From: Parcubacteria group bacterium Gr01-1014_29
Lineage (GTDB): Bacteria > Patescibacteriota > Minisyncoccia > Ryanbacterales > 2-02-FULL-48-12
Direction of reading: 5' to 3'
Assembly: GCA_007376195.1 (NCBI GenBank)
Contig: VMFT01000007.1
Span: 1 to 37,339 of the forward strand
DNA: 37,339 nucleotides
In this document: positions 5,863 through 33,437 of the stretch, in pieces
Layout of the letters: each line of letters begins with the position of its first letter
Position numbering within the stretch: the first letter of the stretch is position 1
The notes under the pieces: generated by a model
Database searches by the model: none
Seen by the model: only the letters and a program-made list of their open reading frames with translations
What the model was told of the DNA's origin: nothing
Program-made: the position numbers and the translations under genes

Positions 5863-6252
5863 ATGCGGAAACTTAGTGGGACATTTGTCTGTGTGGCTTG
5901 TCAGTCCAGAAAAAACCCATGTCTCTGGGATGGCTCAGAACTCTGCGAGGACCCGGGCCGGCCGAAGTGGACGTGCGGTGATTTGTTTTGCGCTGCCAAT
6001 GTCCGTCGGATTAGCGAGAAGTCACGACTCAAGTATTTAGCTGACAAGAGCATTGAAATAATCTTCGAGATGAACCTTCTGAATAGCGAGGTTGTGACTC
6101 TGCTGAAGCACTACCCCGGTGCCAGCCGTGTACAGCAGCTTACGCACTACTTCGTGAAAGTATACAAGATTCCACTCGAACATCCGCTCTCCCGGCTACT
6201 TTTAGCCAAAGAAGCATGGATGGAGAGTCGCATTTCCGAGCTGGTGCTCTAA
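5863..6252 (+). CDS. Orphan zinc-ribbon-like protein
   Basis: A 129-residue protein with a strong SD (AAAGGAGG, 5848-5855) 7 nt before the ATG. The N-terminal 45 residues hold six cysteines (10, 13, 20, 28, 38, 43; CVAC, then NPC, LC, TC, FC), likely a zinc-binding knuckle. The rest is helical (KSRLKYLADKSIEIIFEM, then HPLSRLLLAKEAWMES). I recognise no family. A zinc ribbon plus helices could mean nucleic-acid or protein binding, but that is only inference. It is flanked by terminators and so is transcribed alone. Confidence 0.65.
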   Translation: MRKLSGTFVCVACQSRKNPCLWDGSELCEDPGRPKWTCGDLFCAANVRRISEKSRLKYLADKSIEIIFEMNLLNSEVVTLLKHYPGASRVQQLTHYFVKVYKIPLEHPLSRLLLAKEAWMESRISELVL

Positions 6253-13113: not shown

Positions 13114-13830
13114 ATGGAACTCATTCAGTGCTCAAATGCAGACAAAGCTCGCACATACGCGCTCACGGCGTTACAGAATCTATTGTTTGAGAAAAAGCGG
13201 GCTGGCGTTCCTGTGTTGTTGCTTCTTTCGGGCGGATCGGCGTTTTCAATTTTAGAAAATATATCTCACAATGTTTTTGGCCCGCACATGACTATTGGAG
13301 TTCTTGATGAACGATACAGTACGGATGAGAATATAAATAATTTTTCGCAGCTCATGAAAACGGATTTTTACTGTGCTGCACGGAACACCGGAGCTGCTTG
13401 TGTTGATACGCGCGTTGCGAATGAGGAGACGCAGGATACCTTGGCAAAGCGCATGGAGCATGCTTTGCATGAGTGGGTAGAAACGCACAGTGAAGGAGTT
13501 GTCGCGGCAACAATGGGTATCGGAGCGGATGGACACACAGCCGGCATAATGCCGTTTGCCGAAAATGTTGACATATTCCATGAGCTGTTTGAAGACGAAG
13601 AAAAGTGGGTAGTGTCATACGACGCAGGCACGAAAAATTCCTACCCCCTGCGCGTAACGGTAACGTTGCCGTTTCTTCGCAACTATATAGATTATGCGGT
13701 TGTGTATGCTGTGGGTGAAGAAAAAAAGAACGCGCTTTTGCGCGTGCTGGCAGAGAAAGGAAGTTTTGCCGAAACTCCCGCTCGCATATTTCGCGATATG
13801 AAAAACGTGCAACTTTTTACTGAAAGATGA
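13114..13830 (+). CDS. pgl: 6-phosphogluconolactonase
   Basis: A 238-residue enzyme of the glucosamine-6-phosphate isomerase/6-phosphogluconolactonase superfamily. The phosphate loop LLLSGGSA (about 37-44), the DERY segment and GIGADGHTAGIMP (active-site Asp and His) match DevB-type lactonases. It would hydrolyse 6-phosphoglucono-lactone, the product of G6P dehydrogenase, whose gene lies at 25012 with gnd next to it. It is unusual that pgl is 11 kb away, directly fused (TAAATG) to a ZIP gene. NagB-type deaminase is a less likely alternative. Confidence 0.85.
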   Translation: MELIQCSNADKARTYALTALQNLLFEKKRAGVPVLLLLSGGSAFSILENISHNVFGPHMTIGVLDERYSTDENINNFSQLMKTDFYCAARNTGAACVDTRVANEETQDTLAKRMEHALHEWVETHSEGVVAATMGIGADGHTAGIMPFAENVDIFHELFEDEEKWVVSYDAGTKNSYPLRVTVTLPFLRNYIDYAVVYAVGEEKKNALLRVLAEKGSFAETPARIFRDMKNVQLFTER

Positions 13831-13869
13831 TTCCTAAAAAAGTAGACGGTCGTCTAAATTTTTAGGAAT
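13830..13869. terminator. Long A/T palindrome, bidirectional terminator
   Basis: Perfect 11-bp arms (13830-13840 with 13859-13869) enclose TAGAC / GTCTA (13843-13847 with 13852-13856). T runs lie in the arms for both strands. It ends pgl and could also back up the leftward RNA terminator at 13885. Confidence 0.55.
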
Positions 13870-13884
13870 AAGTTTTTGTTTACA

Positions 13885-13998
13885 ATAAAAGAAAAGCTGC
13901 CCGTAGACAGCTTGAGGAGGGGGAGTGCAGGAAAGGAGGGAAACCTGCACTCCCGGGCACACGGAAACCAAGAGTGGAGGTTGGAATCCGTATCTATC
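13885..13998 (-). ncRNA. Predicted small RNA with three CCUCC motifs
   Basis: A leftward transcript of about 110 nt is predicted from a promoter at 14002-14030 and a terminator hairpin AAGCTG / CAGCTT (13894-13899 with 13908-13913) followed by TTTTCTTTT. Hairpin 1 (13991-13961) pairs ACGGA with UCCGU and CCAA with UUGG around the loop CCUCCACUC. Hairpin 2 (13954-13921) has a perfect 11-bp stem and the 12-nt loop UUUCCCUCCUUU. The linker to the terminator reads CCUCCUC. So each unpaired part carries CCUCC, the complement of SD sequences. The layout resembles Listeria LhrC-type RNAs with repeated CU-rich motifs. It lacks a plausible ORF. Confidence 0.6.
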
Positions 13999-14001
13999 AA
14001 A

Positions 14002-14030
14002 AGTGTATCACGAGCATAAGTAACTGTCAA
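14002..14030 (-). promoter_or_regulatory. Leftward promoter of predicted small RNA
   Basis: On the minus strand: TTGACA (14025-14030), 17-bp spacer, TACACT (14002-14007). A second TTGACA lies 11 bp further upstream (14036-14041). Start predicted near 13995-13998. Confidence 0.65.
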
Positions 14031-14045
14031 GAGGGTGTCAAACTG

Positions 14046-14290
14046 GGCTATCCACAATCCCGCTTACTTACGTTGGTAGCCTTGTGACTAGCCAAGCTCT
14101 ACACACGCCGAAGGCGTTGTGGATAGCTTGGCTTGGCACAGGTGTACCTCGATTAACAAAGTTTCTAGGAAACTACGACGAGATATGCCAAGCCGAGCTA
14201 CTCACAACTTCGCTACGCTCGTGTGCGAAGCTCGGCTAGTCACATTCGTGGTTTCTCGCAGAGAGTGTGAGTGGTTACGTGCCGACCACT
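14046..14290. other. Cluster of overlapping inverted repeats
   Basis: This gene-free stretch is packed with stems besides the doublet at 14084-14243: GCTATCCACAA (14047-14057) with TTGTGGATAGC (14117-14127), GGCTTGGCA (14130-14138) with TGCCAAGCC (14186-14194), GTTTC / GAAAC near 14161-14174, and AGTGGT / ACCACT (14270-14275 with 14285-14290). Some pairings exclude each other. The short ORFs crossing it look spurious. Confidence 0.5.
14084..14243. repeat. REPIN-like inverted doublet of hairpin units
   Basis: Two related units of about 50 bp face each other: unit 1 (14084-14132) and unit 2 (14192-14243, reversed). Both begin GTGACTAGCC on their outer edge and form a hairpin: GCCAAGCT / AGCTTGGC in unit 1, GCCGAGCT / AGCTCGGC in unit 2. 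The one difference between the stems is compensated (A-T in one, G-C in the other). The 59-bp spacer has its own small hairpin. This is the architecture of REP doublets (REPINs); no transposase is nearby. Confidence 0.55.
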
Positions 14291-14318
14291 TGACCGCAAG
14301 GTATTTTTTCGCTACATT
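14290..14318 (+). promoter_or_regulatory. Probable promoter of the suf operon
   Basis: TTGACC (14290-14295), 17-bp spacer, TACATT (14313-14318). Start predicted near 14325, just before the leader hairpin. Confidence 0.55.
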
Positions 14319-14332
14319 ATATAGACATTCAT

Positions 14333-14470
14333 CTATATGATCCCGTTAGAAGCCGCGATCGCTTCGCGGGTCAAATAGACACATACTAGCAACTAACAGG
14401 ATTACGAGTTCATGTATATATTCTGCAGACTACGCCTGATCGCGCTCTGCTTCTAACGGGATGAATATAG
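14333..14470 (+). promoter_or_regulatory. suf leader: long stem enclosing sufB start
   Basis: Three paired blocks form one long helix: CTATAT (14333-14338) with ATATAG (14465-14470); the 14-bp block 14340-14353 with 14449-14462; CGCGATC (14354-14360) with GATCGCG (14438-14444), with a 4-nt bulge CTCT. The sufB ATG (14461-14463) lies inside the helix and has no SD. A local hairpin CCGCGA / TCGCGG (within 14353-14370) competes with the third block, so two folds are possible, as in a switch. The 77-nt loop is unassigned. Function as a translational control element is inferred. Confidence 0.55.
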
Positions 14471-15855
14471 GCGAAATAGACAGATCAAAATATGATAGAT
14501 CCGATAAGGCGCAGGAGCGATACCGCGCTGGTTTTGGCGTTACCGAAGATGTAGTGCGGGAAATTTCCCGGCAGAAAGGCGAGCCAGCCTGGATGCTCAA
14601 CAAGCGTCTGGGCGCATATGCACTTTTTTCAAAAACACCTATTCCAACGTGGGGTCCGGATCTTTCCGGCCTTCATCTGGATGAAATTACCTACTTTGTG
14701 CGTCCTGATGCGGCAGAAGCAAAATCATGGGAAGAGGTGCCGGCTGAAATTCGCCGCACGTTTGATCGCTTAGGTATTCCTGAAGCGGAGAAAAATGCTC
14801 TTGGAGGCGTAGGCGCGCAGTATGATTCCGATATCGTGTATCACAATATAAAAGAGGAGTGGGAGAGGCAGGGTGTTGTTTTTGAAAACATGGATACCGC
14901 CGTACAAAAATATCCAGAGCTTGTGATGCGGTATTTTATGACGCGCTGCGTACCCATCAACGACCATAAGTTTGCCATGCTGCACGCGGCGGTATGGTCG
15001 GGCGGCACGTTTATTTATGTTCCCTCCGGCGTGAAAGTTACGCTCCCGTTGCAGGCGTATTTTCGTATGAATGCCGAGCGCGGGGGGCAGTTTGAGCACA
15101 CACTGATCATTGCTGACAAGAATTCTGAAGTTTCTTATATTGAAGGGTGCTCCGCGCCGCGCTATATGACGAGCGCGTTGCATGCCGGGTGTGTGGAGAT
15201 TTTTGTGGGCGAGGGAGCGATTGTGCGGTATTCAAGCATTGAGAACTGGAGCTTGAATACCTATAACCTCAATACAAAGCGCGCGATTGTGGAAAAAAAC
15301 GCTACCATCGAATGGATTAACGGAAATATGGGATCTGGTACTACTATGCTCTATCCCGCGAGTATTTTGGTAGGTGAGGGGGCTCGCTCGGAAAGTCTTG
15401 GTATCGCGGTTGCGGGTCCCGGACAGCATCAAGATACCGGATCAAAAGTTGTTCATGTCTCACCGCGAACATCATCTGTTATTCGCGCAAAAAGTATTTC
15501 GCGCGGCGGCGGCGTCGCGTCATACCGCGGGCTGGTGCGTGTAGGGAGGCGCGCGGACAATACGTCTTCAAGCGTGGTGTGCGATGCGCTTATTCTTGAT
15601 GGGGAATCACAGTCGCATACGTATCCGTTTATCAAGGCCGAAAACAGTGATTCAGACATACTACATGAGGCGCGTACGGGACGTATTGGGGATGACGAAC
15701 TGTTTTATGTGATGAGCCGCGGATTTTCCCCAGAGGCTGCGTTGAAACTTATCGTAGGCGGTTTTGTGGAAGAGGTATCAAAAAAACTGCCGCTTGAATA
15801 CGCGGTAGAGTTTAATCGTCTTATTGAACTCCAGATGGAGGGCGCAGTTGGGTAG
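14461..15855 (+). CDS. sufB: SufB, Fe-S scaffold complex subunit
   Basis: A 464-residue SufB, core of the SufBCD scaffold that builds Fe-S clusters in the cytoplasm. The N-terminal SufB signature is clear (EDVVREISRQKGEPAWML), followed by the long beta-helix and the C-terminal DDELFYVMSRGFSPEAA and LPLEYAVEFNRL. Where E. coli SufB has Cys405 in LFYC, this protein has Val, as far as I can align it by eye; Gram-positive SufB also lacks Cys there. The start is forced: an in-frame TGA lies at 14437-14439 with no other start codon in between. It is the first gene of the operon, under the unusual leader. Confidence 0.95.
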   Translation: MNIGEIDRSKYDRSDKAQERYRAGFGVTEDVVREISRQKGEPAWMLNKRLGAYALFSKTPIPTWGPDLSGLHLDEITYFVRPDAAEAKSWEEVPAEIRRTFDRLGIPEAEKNALGGVGAQYDSDIVYHNIKEEWERQGVVFENMDTAVQKYPELVMRYFMTRCVPINDHKFAMLHAAVWSGGTFIYVPSGVKVTLPLQAYFRMNAERGGQFEHTLIIADKNSEVSYIEGCSAPRYMTSALHAGCVEIFVGEGAIVRYSSIENWSLNTYNLNTKRAIVEKNATIEWINGNMGSGTTMLYPASILVGEGARSESLGIAVAGPGQHQDTGSKVVHVSPRTSSVIRAKSISRGGGVASYRGLVRVGRRADNTSSSVVCDALILDGESQSHTYPFIKAENSDSDILHEARTGRIGDDELFYVMSRGFSPEAALKLIVGGFVEEVSKKLPLEYAVEFNRLIELQMEGAVG

Positions 15856-20457: not shown

Positions 20458-22146
20458 TTACTTTTTGTGTGTCAGCTTCTTTTGAAGAAACGATTCCTTT
20501 GCAGCGGTTCGTTCGGATTCGCCTCTACGCGCCAACGGGTATTCATTCATGTCTATCCGCATGAATTGGGCAAGCAGGGGCGCTTTTTTTGCAAAGAGAC
20601 GGTATTTTTCCTGTTCAATATGACGATAGTCAGGGTGTCCCTGCGAACCGGTGCGGAGTTCTGTTTCCCAAAACAAAGAAGCAAGATTTTGTTTTTGGTA
20701 AAACCGGATTCTATACGCAAGCGGAACAATGTATTGCGCGAGCAACGTGCTTTCCGATTCCAGTTTTTTGAACAATGGGACAATTGAATCAAGCGCTTTT
20801 CGGTAGGGACGTTCCATGCCAGCCTCTATTATTTCCGGCGAGACGCTATACTTGTGGTAGATGGTAAATGTTTGACGGTCTTGCGTGAGCATACGATGCC
20901 GGTGAAGGTCGCGATACGCTCCTATGTCCATGAGTATCTCAAAACGAACGTCCGCGTTTTCAAGCGCGCGCCCCGGTTTGTACCAGCGTTCTTTTCGTTC
21001 ACGAAAGAAGGAGTCGAGGATTTCCTTTTTTTGCTCGATACCCATCTTTCGGACAAGCAAAGTAATGTCGTTCCAGCTGCGATGCGTGCCGGGCAGTGAA
21101 TAAAGTATACCGGCAATAACGTGTTCTGTTGCGTGCTTGTCGTATTCTACCAAGTGAACTTCCGGTTTTGATACGGATTCATACAGAGACAATTCACTTT
21201 GTAGGCGTTTGGGAAGTTCGCGTTCGGTATCGCGCGCGCAATGCGCGAGATATTCTTGATAATGACGGGATTTTTCATCCTCCGTGCGCAGCAGCAGAGA
21301 AGGGATTTCCGTATCAAGCTCTTCTTTCGAAGTTTCCGCGAGCCATCGGAATTCGCCAAGCTCATGCGCGCGCAGGCGATTGATGAGGTACTCGTACGCG
21401 GCGGCGTTTCCGCGAAACGCTACCTGGCCGACTGTTGCCATCGGAAGAAGGCCGCGCAATGTGTCAAACGCTTTTTTCTCAAGCACGCCCTCCTTTTCAT
21501 CGTACTTGTGTTTGAGCCATTCAACAAATTGCGGTACCAGTATGTTGTATGTATCAAACAATCCATCAAGTGCTTTGGTGTATTCCGTAAGAAGATTCAT
21601 GCGTCGAAGATCGGGTATAGGCGTATAGTACAAATACCTTCCACTCACTTTTTTCCCGAAGTTAACGTAGCGCGTTGATTTTTCAATGGGTTCAAGTCCG
21701 ATACGCTGGTCCTCAATGAATTTCATTGCTACTTGCGAGATGCCCCAGTACACAATATGCGCGCCGGTGTTTTGCGCAATAGAGTCGTCGCCATAGAGAG
21801 AAAGCCATTTGATATAGAATCCTTGCGCGCGCTGGTTGTTGAGAATATTTTTGAAGCCATGCTCGGTGAGAAAATCAACAACGCGGTTGAGTTCTTTCGC
21901 AAGCGCTTTGTCGTCGCCGTCAACAATGGGGTAGATATATTCATTCAGAAAAACGCGTAGCAGCGATTCTTTTGCGCGGCTTGCGCGCGAGCACAGCGCT
22001 CCCACAATTTCCGGTGGAATGCTGTGAAGCACATGCACCAGGCCGTCAATGTTGGTGGCAAACGGCGTTAAGTACTTTCGATCGCGTGGGGACCATTGCT
22101 CGGGTTTGAATGATGGAGCGTATAATGATACTTTTTTGAGCCTCAT
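20458..22146 (-). CDS. thyX: FAD-dependent thymidylate synthase, duplicated
   Basis: A 562-residue ThyX-family protein, about twice the usual 220-300. Two ThyX-like halves can be seen. The first has EDQRIGLEPIEKSTRYVNFG (about 145-165). The second has LHRHRMLTQDRQTF (about 413-427), which keeps the RHR of the ThyX signature but not its full RHRxxSxNxxSxR form. It should methylate dUMP to dTMP with FAD and methylene-folate, if the active site is complete across the two halves. Its start overlaps the tmk stop (ATGA). dUTPase and deaminase genes close by support the dTMP role. Confidence 0.8.
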   Translation of the reverse strand: MRLKKVSLYAPSFKPEQWSPRDRKYLTPFATNIDGLVHVLHSIPPEIVGALCSRASRAKESLLRVFLNEYIYPIVDGDDKALAKELNRVVDFLTEHGFKNILNNQRAQGFYIKWLSLYGDDSIAQNTGAHIVYWGISQVAMKFIEDQRIGLEPIEKSTRYVNFGKKVSGRYLYYTPIPDLRRMNLLTEYTKALDGLFDTYNILVPQFVEWLKHKYDEKEGVLEKKAFDTLRGLLPMATVGQVAFRGNAAAYEYLINRLRAHELGEFRWLAETSKEELDTEIPSLLLRTEDEKSRHYQEYLAHCARDTERELPKRLQSELSLYESVSKPEVHLVEYDKHATEHVIAGILYSLPGTHRSWNDITLLVRKMGIEQKKEILDSFFRERKERWYKPGRALENADVRFEILMDIGAYRDLHRHRMLTQDRQTFTIYHKYSVSPEIIEAGMERPYRKALDSIVPLFKKLESESTLLAQYIVPLAYRIRFYQKQNLASLFWETELRTGSQGHPDYRHIEQEKYRLFAKKAPLLAQFMRIDMNEYPLARRGESERTAAKESFLQKKLTHKK

Positions 22147-30484: not shown

Positions 30485-31408
30485 ATGAATGTCGGCATGT
30501 TTATGATTGCTCTTGGCATAGCGTTTTGTGAAAATTTTGGAATTGCATTCTATCTTCGCCGTGGATTGCGCAACATGAATATCAAGAGTCACATAGAGTT
30601 ATCAATGGTGATTCCTCTTTCGCTCATCGGCGGCGGCGTGCTGTATGGCATATGGCATGGTTTTACAGTGGGGTATTCTTTTGGCGCTGTGCTAACTGCT
30701 TTTGTTCTGACACTTTTCAGAGGTCTTGGCATAAGCCTGGGGCTTCATCGGCATGACACGCATAAAAGCTTTAAAGCGCATCCGTTTTTTCAGTTTTTTC
30801 TTGCGATATGCCATTGGACAGGAGGTATGCGGAAAAAAACATGGGTGCCTGACCACGAACAGCACCACCGGTACGAGGATACGATAAGAGACCCGCACTC
30901 ACCCTGGGCACCGTTTAACGGAGGATGGCGCGGTTGGTTGTGGAGTGATGTTGGGTGGCTACTTGTAAAACGGGACTTGCATGTACCCATGCTGACAAAT
31001 CCTTCTTTTCTAAATGTTGAGCGTTATCTATTCCCGCCGTGTTTTGCACTTGGGTTTGCAATACCATGGTATTTTTTTGGACTTGAAGGTTTTCTCCTGT
31101 GCGGTTGTATGAGTGTTGCATATATCTTTAAGACGGCTTTCGGGGTCAATTCGTCGGGACATATGTTTGGTAGAGCTGTAAATAAAAAAAGCAAAAGCCG
31201 AAACGCTTCATGGTTTATTGCGCTCATCACGATGGTAGGCGAGAAATATCATGCGAATCATCATGTCGATCAGAGTTCCGCATTCCTTGGCTGGCGCGCG
31301 TACGACATTGATGCGGGTAAGTGGTTGCTCCTTGGTCTTGAAAAACTCGGGATAGTATATGATGTGAAGCGGCCGAGAAACTATTATCTTATTTCAACAG
31401 CTTCATAA
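30485..31408 (+). CDS. Acyl-CoA/fatty-acid desaturase
   Basis: A 307-residue membrane di-iron desaturase. The three histidine boxes are complete: HRHDTH (88-93), HEQHH (124-128, in DHEQHHRYEDTIRDPHSP) and HANHH (256-260, in EKYHANHHVDQSSA). About four or five hydrophobic helices surround them. The pattern is that of stearoyl-CoA-type delta-9 desaturases, which introduce a double bond into membrane acyl chains. The ATG is 4 nt after AAAGGAGG (30473-30480). Its 3' end overlaps polX by 20 nt, tail to tail. No electron donor or fatty-acid synthesis gene is in the window. Confidence 0.9.
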   Translation: MNVGMFMIALGIAFCENFGIAFYLRRGLRNMNIKSHIELSMVIPLSLIGGGVLYGIWHGFTVGYSFGAVLTAFVLTLFRGLGISLGLHRHDTHKSFKAHPFFQFFLAICHWTGGMRKKTWVPDHEQHHRYEDTIRDPHSPWAPFNGGWRGWLWSDVGWLLVKRDLHVPMLTNPSFLNVERYLFPPCFALGFAIPWYFFGLEGFLLCGCMSVAYIFKTAFGVNSSGHMFGRAVNKKSKSRNASWFIALITMVGEKYHANHHVDQSSAFLGWRAYDIDAGKWLLLGLEKLGIVYDVKRPRNYYLISTAS

Positions 31409-33293: not shown

Positions 33294-33437
33294 ATGGATC
33301 ATTCACAGATTGTTGTTATGACAAGCTGCGAGGCCATGAGAGAGATTATCGACTCGGAAATTTCTTTCGTGCTTAAACTACTCTTTTCGCTTCCAATCGT
33401 AACAATGGTTCTCCTATATTGCGTCTGGAGGCAATGA
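33294..33437 (+). CDS. 47-residue single-pass membrane protein
   Basis: Starts at ATG 33294, 4 nt after AAAGGAGGG (33281-33289), with a perfect-consensus promoter. One transmembrane segment (FVLKLLFSLPIVTMVLLYCV) follows an acidic helix (CEAMREIIDSEIS). An in-frame start further upstream (33252) lies inside the promoter and is not used. No family is recognised. The strong promoter and SD mean high expression unless repressed; the palindrome just upstream could be the operator, and the SD matches the predicted small RNA loop over 9 nt. Confidence 0.65.
   Translation: MDHSQIVVMTSCEAMREIIDSEISFVLKLLFSLPIVTMVLLYCVWRQ

Follow-up and report, generated by a model that had tools for sequence, protein, structure and literature searches.

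A predicted small RNA with three exposed CCUCC motifs in a Parcubacteria genome is a candidate anti-Shine-Dalgarno mimic

The ar14/NfeR1 RNAs (SmelA075, the 'cuckoo' RNAs) of the Rhizobiales are small intergenic RNAs made of several hairpins with an anti-Shine-Dalgarno (anti-SD, aSD) loop in each; the loops are kept, the stems are strongly divergent, and the RNAs pair with translation initiation regions (PMC10746234, PMC3927594). In the case of NfeR1, three redundant aSD motifs silence mRNAs through occlusion of the ribosome-binding site (PMC10746234). A second RNA of this kind of design is CcsR1 (RF02791), a stress-induced RNA of Rhodobacter that has a conserved CCUCCUCCC motif. The LhrC sRNAs of Listeria expose several CU-rich sites that pair with Shine-Dalgarno (SD) regions, and the 6C / B11 sRNA of Actinobacteria has two hairpins with C-rich loops before its terminator and pairs near SDs.

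We examined a stretch of 37,339 nucleotides (the window) from Parcubacteria group bacterium Gr01-1014_29. A preliminary description had proposed here a leftward unit of about 110 nt, with a TTGACA-17-TACACT promoter and a clean terminator. We recovered both elements (promoter 14030-14002, terminator 13913-13894), and the features of the locus are collected in Table 1. The unit is intergenic and has a promoter and an intrinsic terminator of its own, as a stand-alone sRNA should have. The longest minus-strand ORF across it (13854-14057, 67 codons) is unlikely to be coding, since its start precedes that of the transcript and it has no Pfam match. The genome has 1.08 Mb in 52 contigs, of which 503 kb were covered by the scans for such units and for paralogues. 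The scan for intergenic promoter-terminator units gave 9 entries (8 distinct), and CCTCC was present in one of the 8, the unit at 13997-13885; no paralogues of this unit were seen in the 503 kb. We consider the isolated transcription unit confirmed, in that it looks real; that it is transcribed is predicted from the sequence.

Table 1. Features of the predicted sRNA locus and its surroundings (positions in the window)
Feature	Position	Strand	Basis
Predicted sRNA transcript, ~112 nt	13885..13997	-	promoter, terminator and fold
Sigma-70-type promoter TTGACA-17-TACACT, extended -10 (TG one base before -10)	14002..14030	-	sequence
Second promoter-like site TTGACA-17-TATGCT, overlapping the first promoter	14013..14041	-	sequence
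Hairpin 1: 7 bp, 2x2 internal loop, 4 bp; loop CCUCCACUC	13959..13993	-	predicted fold
CCUCC motif 1, in hairpin 1 loop	13976..13980	-	unpaired probability 0.99-1.0
Hairpin 2: 11 bp; loop UUUCCCUCCUUU	13921..13954	-	predicted fold
CCUCC motif 2, in hairpin 2 loop; with flanks CCUCCUUUC	13935..13939	-	unpaired probability
Single-stranded linker CCUCCUC with CCUCC motif 3 (13920-13916)	13914..13920	-	predicted fold and unpaired probability
Intrinsic terminator: 8-bp stem, C(UACG)G loop, U-rich tail	13885..13913 (hairpin 13913-13894)	-	sequence and fold
6-Phosphogluconolactonase-family gene, convergent neighbour	13114..13830	+	PF01182
Inverted repeat with T tail, 3' of the 6-phosphogluconolactonase-family gene	13823..13876	+	sequence
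sufB, divergent neighbour, first gene of suf operon	14461..15855	+	gene annotation
suf promoter TTGACC-17-TACATT and palindrome ATATAGACATTCATCTATAT	14290..14338	+	sequence

The RNA was predicted to fold into hairpin 1, hairpin 2, a linker and the terminator hairpin. Its minimum free energy was -47.7 kcal/mol, as against -24.7 +/- 3.0 for shuffled sequences (z -7.64), and none of 200 shuffles was equally stable. All three CCUCC motifs had predicted unpaired probabilities of 0.97-1.0, so that the fold first proposed for the unit, with CCUCC in each unpaired part of two hairpins and a linker, is borne out. Motif 2 with its flanks repeats the canonical 3'-tail of 16S rRNA. The joint chance of a CCUCC in all three segments was 3.6e-8 at genome composition and rose to 0.005 once the C/U-rich composition of the segments was taken as given. 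When both strands of 276 kb were scanned, three CCTCC within 75 nt turned up independently about 8 times. The triplet by itself is unremarkable; it is the promoter-terminator context that is remarkable.

Membership in a known Rfam family of other function would speak against the preliminary description, and cmscan of the unit returned no family at threshold. The nearest models were both far below threshold: CcsR1 scored 14.0 bits (gathering cut-off 65.3) and Atu_C7 (RF02501) 14.9 bits (gathering cut-off 45). CcsR1 shares with the unit the two hairpins with CCUCC loops, and it aligned with it from end to end, though at this sub-threshold score; its consensus loops differ in being the longer ACCUCCUCCC/CCUCCUCCC. 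The likeness to ar14/NfeR1 lies in the several anti-SD motifs exposed on one small intergenic RNA. However, those RNAs carry the ultraconserved CCUCCUCCC in three hairpin loops, whereas here CCUCC stands in two loops and a linker with other flanks. The longer motif is absent from the 13997-13885 unit, which does not have the three-hairpin arrangement of ar14/NfeR1. There was also no match of ar14 to the unit by cmscan even at E 10, no sequence homology between the two, and the phylum is a different one. In the 6C / B11 sRNA the terminator is likewise preceded by two C-rich hairpin loops, but these are runs of C, and 6C (RF01066) gave no cmscan match to the unit up to E 10. The preliminary description had chosen LhrC as its design parallel. 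This was not the nearest one: ar14/NfeR1 and CcsR, whose hairpin loops present CCUCCUCCC one after another, come nearer, and LhrC is a multicopy family with UCCC-type motifs, in contrast to the single-copy CCUCC unit, which has no Rfam match to it. Since the scores of CcsR1 and Atu_C7 were far below threshold, we read the resemblance to CcsR/cuckoo RNAs as probable convergence of design rather than membership.

We also considered the opposite strand. The reverse complement of the unit folds too, with GGAGG in its loops, and a functional plus strand could use these GGAGG/GGA loops as a CsrB-like sponge for CsrA. We found no match to CsrA (PF02599) in this genome, with the control genomes positive, and this largely refutes such a sponge. 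Moreover, the promoters and the terminator are on the minus strand, and the 6-phosphogluconolactonase-family gene has an inverted repeat and T tail of its own before the region, which likely ends the transcript of that gene ahead of the sRNA. A plus-strand sponge is thus scarcely credible to us. On the other side, SufB has its relatives in Candidatus Magasanikbacteria, to which they assign the host. The palindrome ATATAGACATTCATCTATAT lies at the -10 of the suf promoter (14313-14338), and a similar sequence is found upstream of sufB in two relatives (G001, G002); it is possibly the operator of an Fe-S-responsive regulator. A perfect 14-nt inverted repeat (ATCCCGTTAGAAGC / GCTTCTAACGGGAT, at 14340-14353 and 14449-14462) flanks the sufB leader. 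Between the sRNA promoter and that of suf there is a palindromic REP/MITE-like repeat at 14083-14245 (GTGCCRAGC..AAGCTATCCACA .. TGTGTAGAGCTCGGCTAGTCACA), with other copies at L096:8027-8107, L139:9049-9187, L112:13264-13329 and L144:16577-16644. The genes adjoining the unit gave no clear clue to the signal.

Homologues of the unit were sought at several levels. The DNA search in the family matched the window alone. A covariance-model search for homologues with preserved loops had been proposed as a check; our single-sequence model again matched the window alone among 10 order genomes and samples of 384 class and 380 phylum genomes, a set with no congeneric genome, and this counts half against the earlier claim. 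The weak extra matches of the covariance and DNA searches could be put down to coding DNA, to a terminator of no relation or to a tRNA-terminator pair. A looser descriptor covariance model (A2/R2), with computer-randomised stems and fixed CCUCC, gave 7 weak matches in 384 genomes at E 0.05, where about 19 are expected by chance. Two other Patescibacteria of the class have sRNA-like, CCUCC-bearing hairpin-terminator units (L117:1501-1615 and L119:1501-1611); these are within chance expectation and could not be called homologues. The unit was not seen upstream of sufB in G001 and G002, the contig of G001 beginning only 227 bases before sufB, and nothing relevant came from pattern searches of viral contigs or from blastn against phages and plasmids. 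As judged from these comparisons, the order, class and phylum searches lend no support to selection on stems or loops. A recent, non-functional or lineage-specific transcript, from a terminator-like region whose C-rich loops are accidental and whose promoter arose by chance, would fit the lack of a homologue in the genomes searched. It would also fit the fairly easy yield of CCUCC by C/U-rich loops (the 0.005 above) and an interval that the adjoining REP/MITE-like repeat marks as evolutionarily restless. The stability of the fold (z -7.6), the strong extended -10 promoter and a motif exclusive to one of the 8 units argue against it, and we consider this explanation unlikely.

We next compared the motifs with the SD sites of the genome, using 417 genes with crude start calls, so that the SD counts are lower bounds. 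AGGAG was found upstream of 34 of the 417 genes (5.6 expected), GGAGG upstream of 26 (8.2 expected) and AAGGAG upstream of 24 (2.5 expected), at a normal spacing of 4-9 nt. SD-bearing genes are a minority, about 6-10%. Loop 2 (CCCUCCUUU) could pair over at least 7 nt with 28 of the 417 translation-start regions, as against 6.8 for CCUCC loops with random flanks (none of 200 such controls reached 28), and over at least 8 nt with 9 regions as against 1.7. The canonical 16S tail outscored it, pairing over at least 8 nt with 20 genes; this is expected if loop 2 imitates that tail. Loop 1 and the linker matched SDs no better than other CCUCC-bearing sequences in the 417 genes, with nothing beyond the core. 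Of the three motifs, loop 2 alone shows complementarity to targets beyond the core in these genes. Individual sites named earlier stood up to a re-check: the gene at 33294, a 47-aa ORF, has a CAUAAAGGAGGGCGUU-AUG complementary to loop 2 over 9 nt, and there are 8 nt each at the fatty-acid desaturase gene at 30485 and at an ORF without assigned function at 5863. The ThyX-family gene at 20458-22146 also has 8 nt. SD-bearing genes surveyed by Pfam (in the window and stretches L103, L106 and L138 of this genome) formed a mixed list with no clear regulon. Several nucleotide-metabolism genes are in the list: ThyX family, Tmk, IMPDH, OMP decarboxylase, a phosphoribosyltransferase and 5'-nucleotidase.

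Our main reading, to which we give a probability of about 0.6, is that the unit is an independently transcribed, trans-acting sRNA that occludes SD sites by CCUCC base pairing. Its three exposed CCUCC sites (two loops and the linker) would mimic the anti-SD sequence, pair with GGAGG-type SDs on a minority of mRNAs and block binding of the 30S subunit. Loop 2 would be the main seed, and loop 1 and the linker may add avidity, redundancy or multi-target capacity. Hfq (PF17209) gave no match in this genome, with control genomes positive, and hence any pairing would be Hfq-independent. Another partner is possible in the absence of Hfq, and repeated identical loop motifs are typical of protein sponges. 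On this view the partner of the C/U-rich loops would be an RNA-binding protein (of the cold-shock, KH or S1-like kind) or another RNA that they titrate, instead of the SDs of mRNAs. However, a specific binder of CCUCC loops was not identified, the motif is the exact anti-SD core, and loop 2 does better than random flanks on the genome's own SDs, a fit for which a C/U-binding protein would have no use. We consider it quite improbable that the RNA is a sponge or binds a protein. SD occlusion by anti-SD mimicry, as for NfeR1, would be the most economical mechanism. An sRNA acting as an aSD mimic is the best-supported explanation, and partly supported at present, with expression, target binding, repression, physiological targets and role being predicted.

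The 16S rRNA of the organism is missing from its bin, and we read the 16S loci of order-mates (L125-L130, from G002, G006, G008, G003, G005 and G009, respectively). The 3' end was without CCUCC in all six order-mates with a complete 16S, the tails being GGAAUUCAUCCUUUU, GGAAUUUCUCCUUUU, GGAUUUUCUCCUAGU and GGAUCAUAUCCUAGU. In one of them (G009) a group I intron lies inside the 16S rRNA gene (L130:2383-2666). In the genome under study, GGAGGT and GAGGTG were enriched in the SD pool, which points to a canonical 16S tail; in the order-mate G002, GGAGG preceded 8 of 115 genes (0.9 expected). Era, the reader of GAUCA and CCUCC, has been lost in most CPR (PMC10582724), and the main text of a survey of anti-SD-less organisms does not mention Parcubacteria (PMC6107228). 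One could imagine that, with CCUCC largely gone from the 16S tails of the order, this anti-SD function resides partly or wholly on a trans-acting sRNA (through CCUCCUUUC), which represses canonical-GGAGG genes or bridges their mRNAs to the ribosome; we regard this as a long shot. The CCUCC-less tails of the six order-mates beside a minority of well-spaced GGAGG SDs (in this genome and in G002) are potentially the bigger story.

We found no paper on regulatory base-pairing sRNAs in CPR/Patescibacteria. If the anti-SD mimic is true, the cuckoo/CcsR design would have been invented independently here, as a multi-aSD RNA that does without Hfq. With SDs as a minority mark and the anti-SDs of order-mate 16S rRNAs degenerate, an anti-SD RNA could regulate selected genes instead of acting globally. 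Together, the sRNA and the CCUCC-less 16S tails pose a testable question, namely how the start of translation is chosen in such cells.
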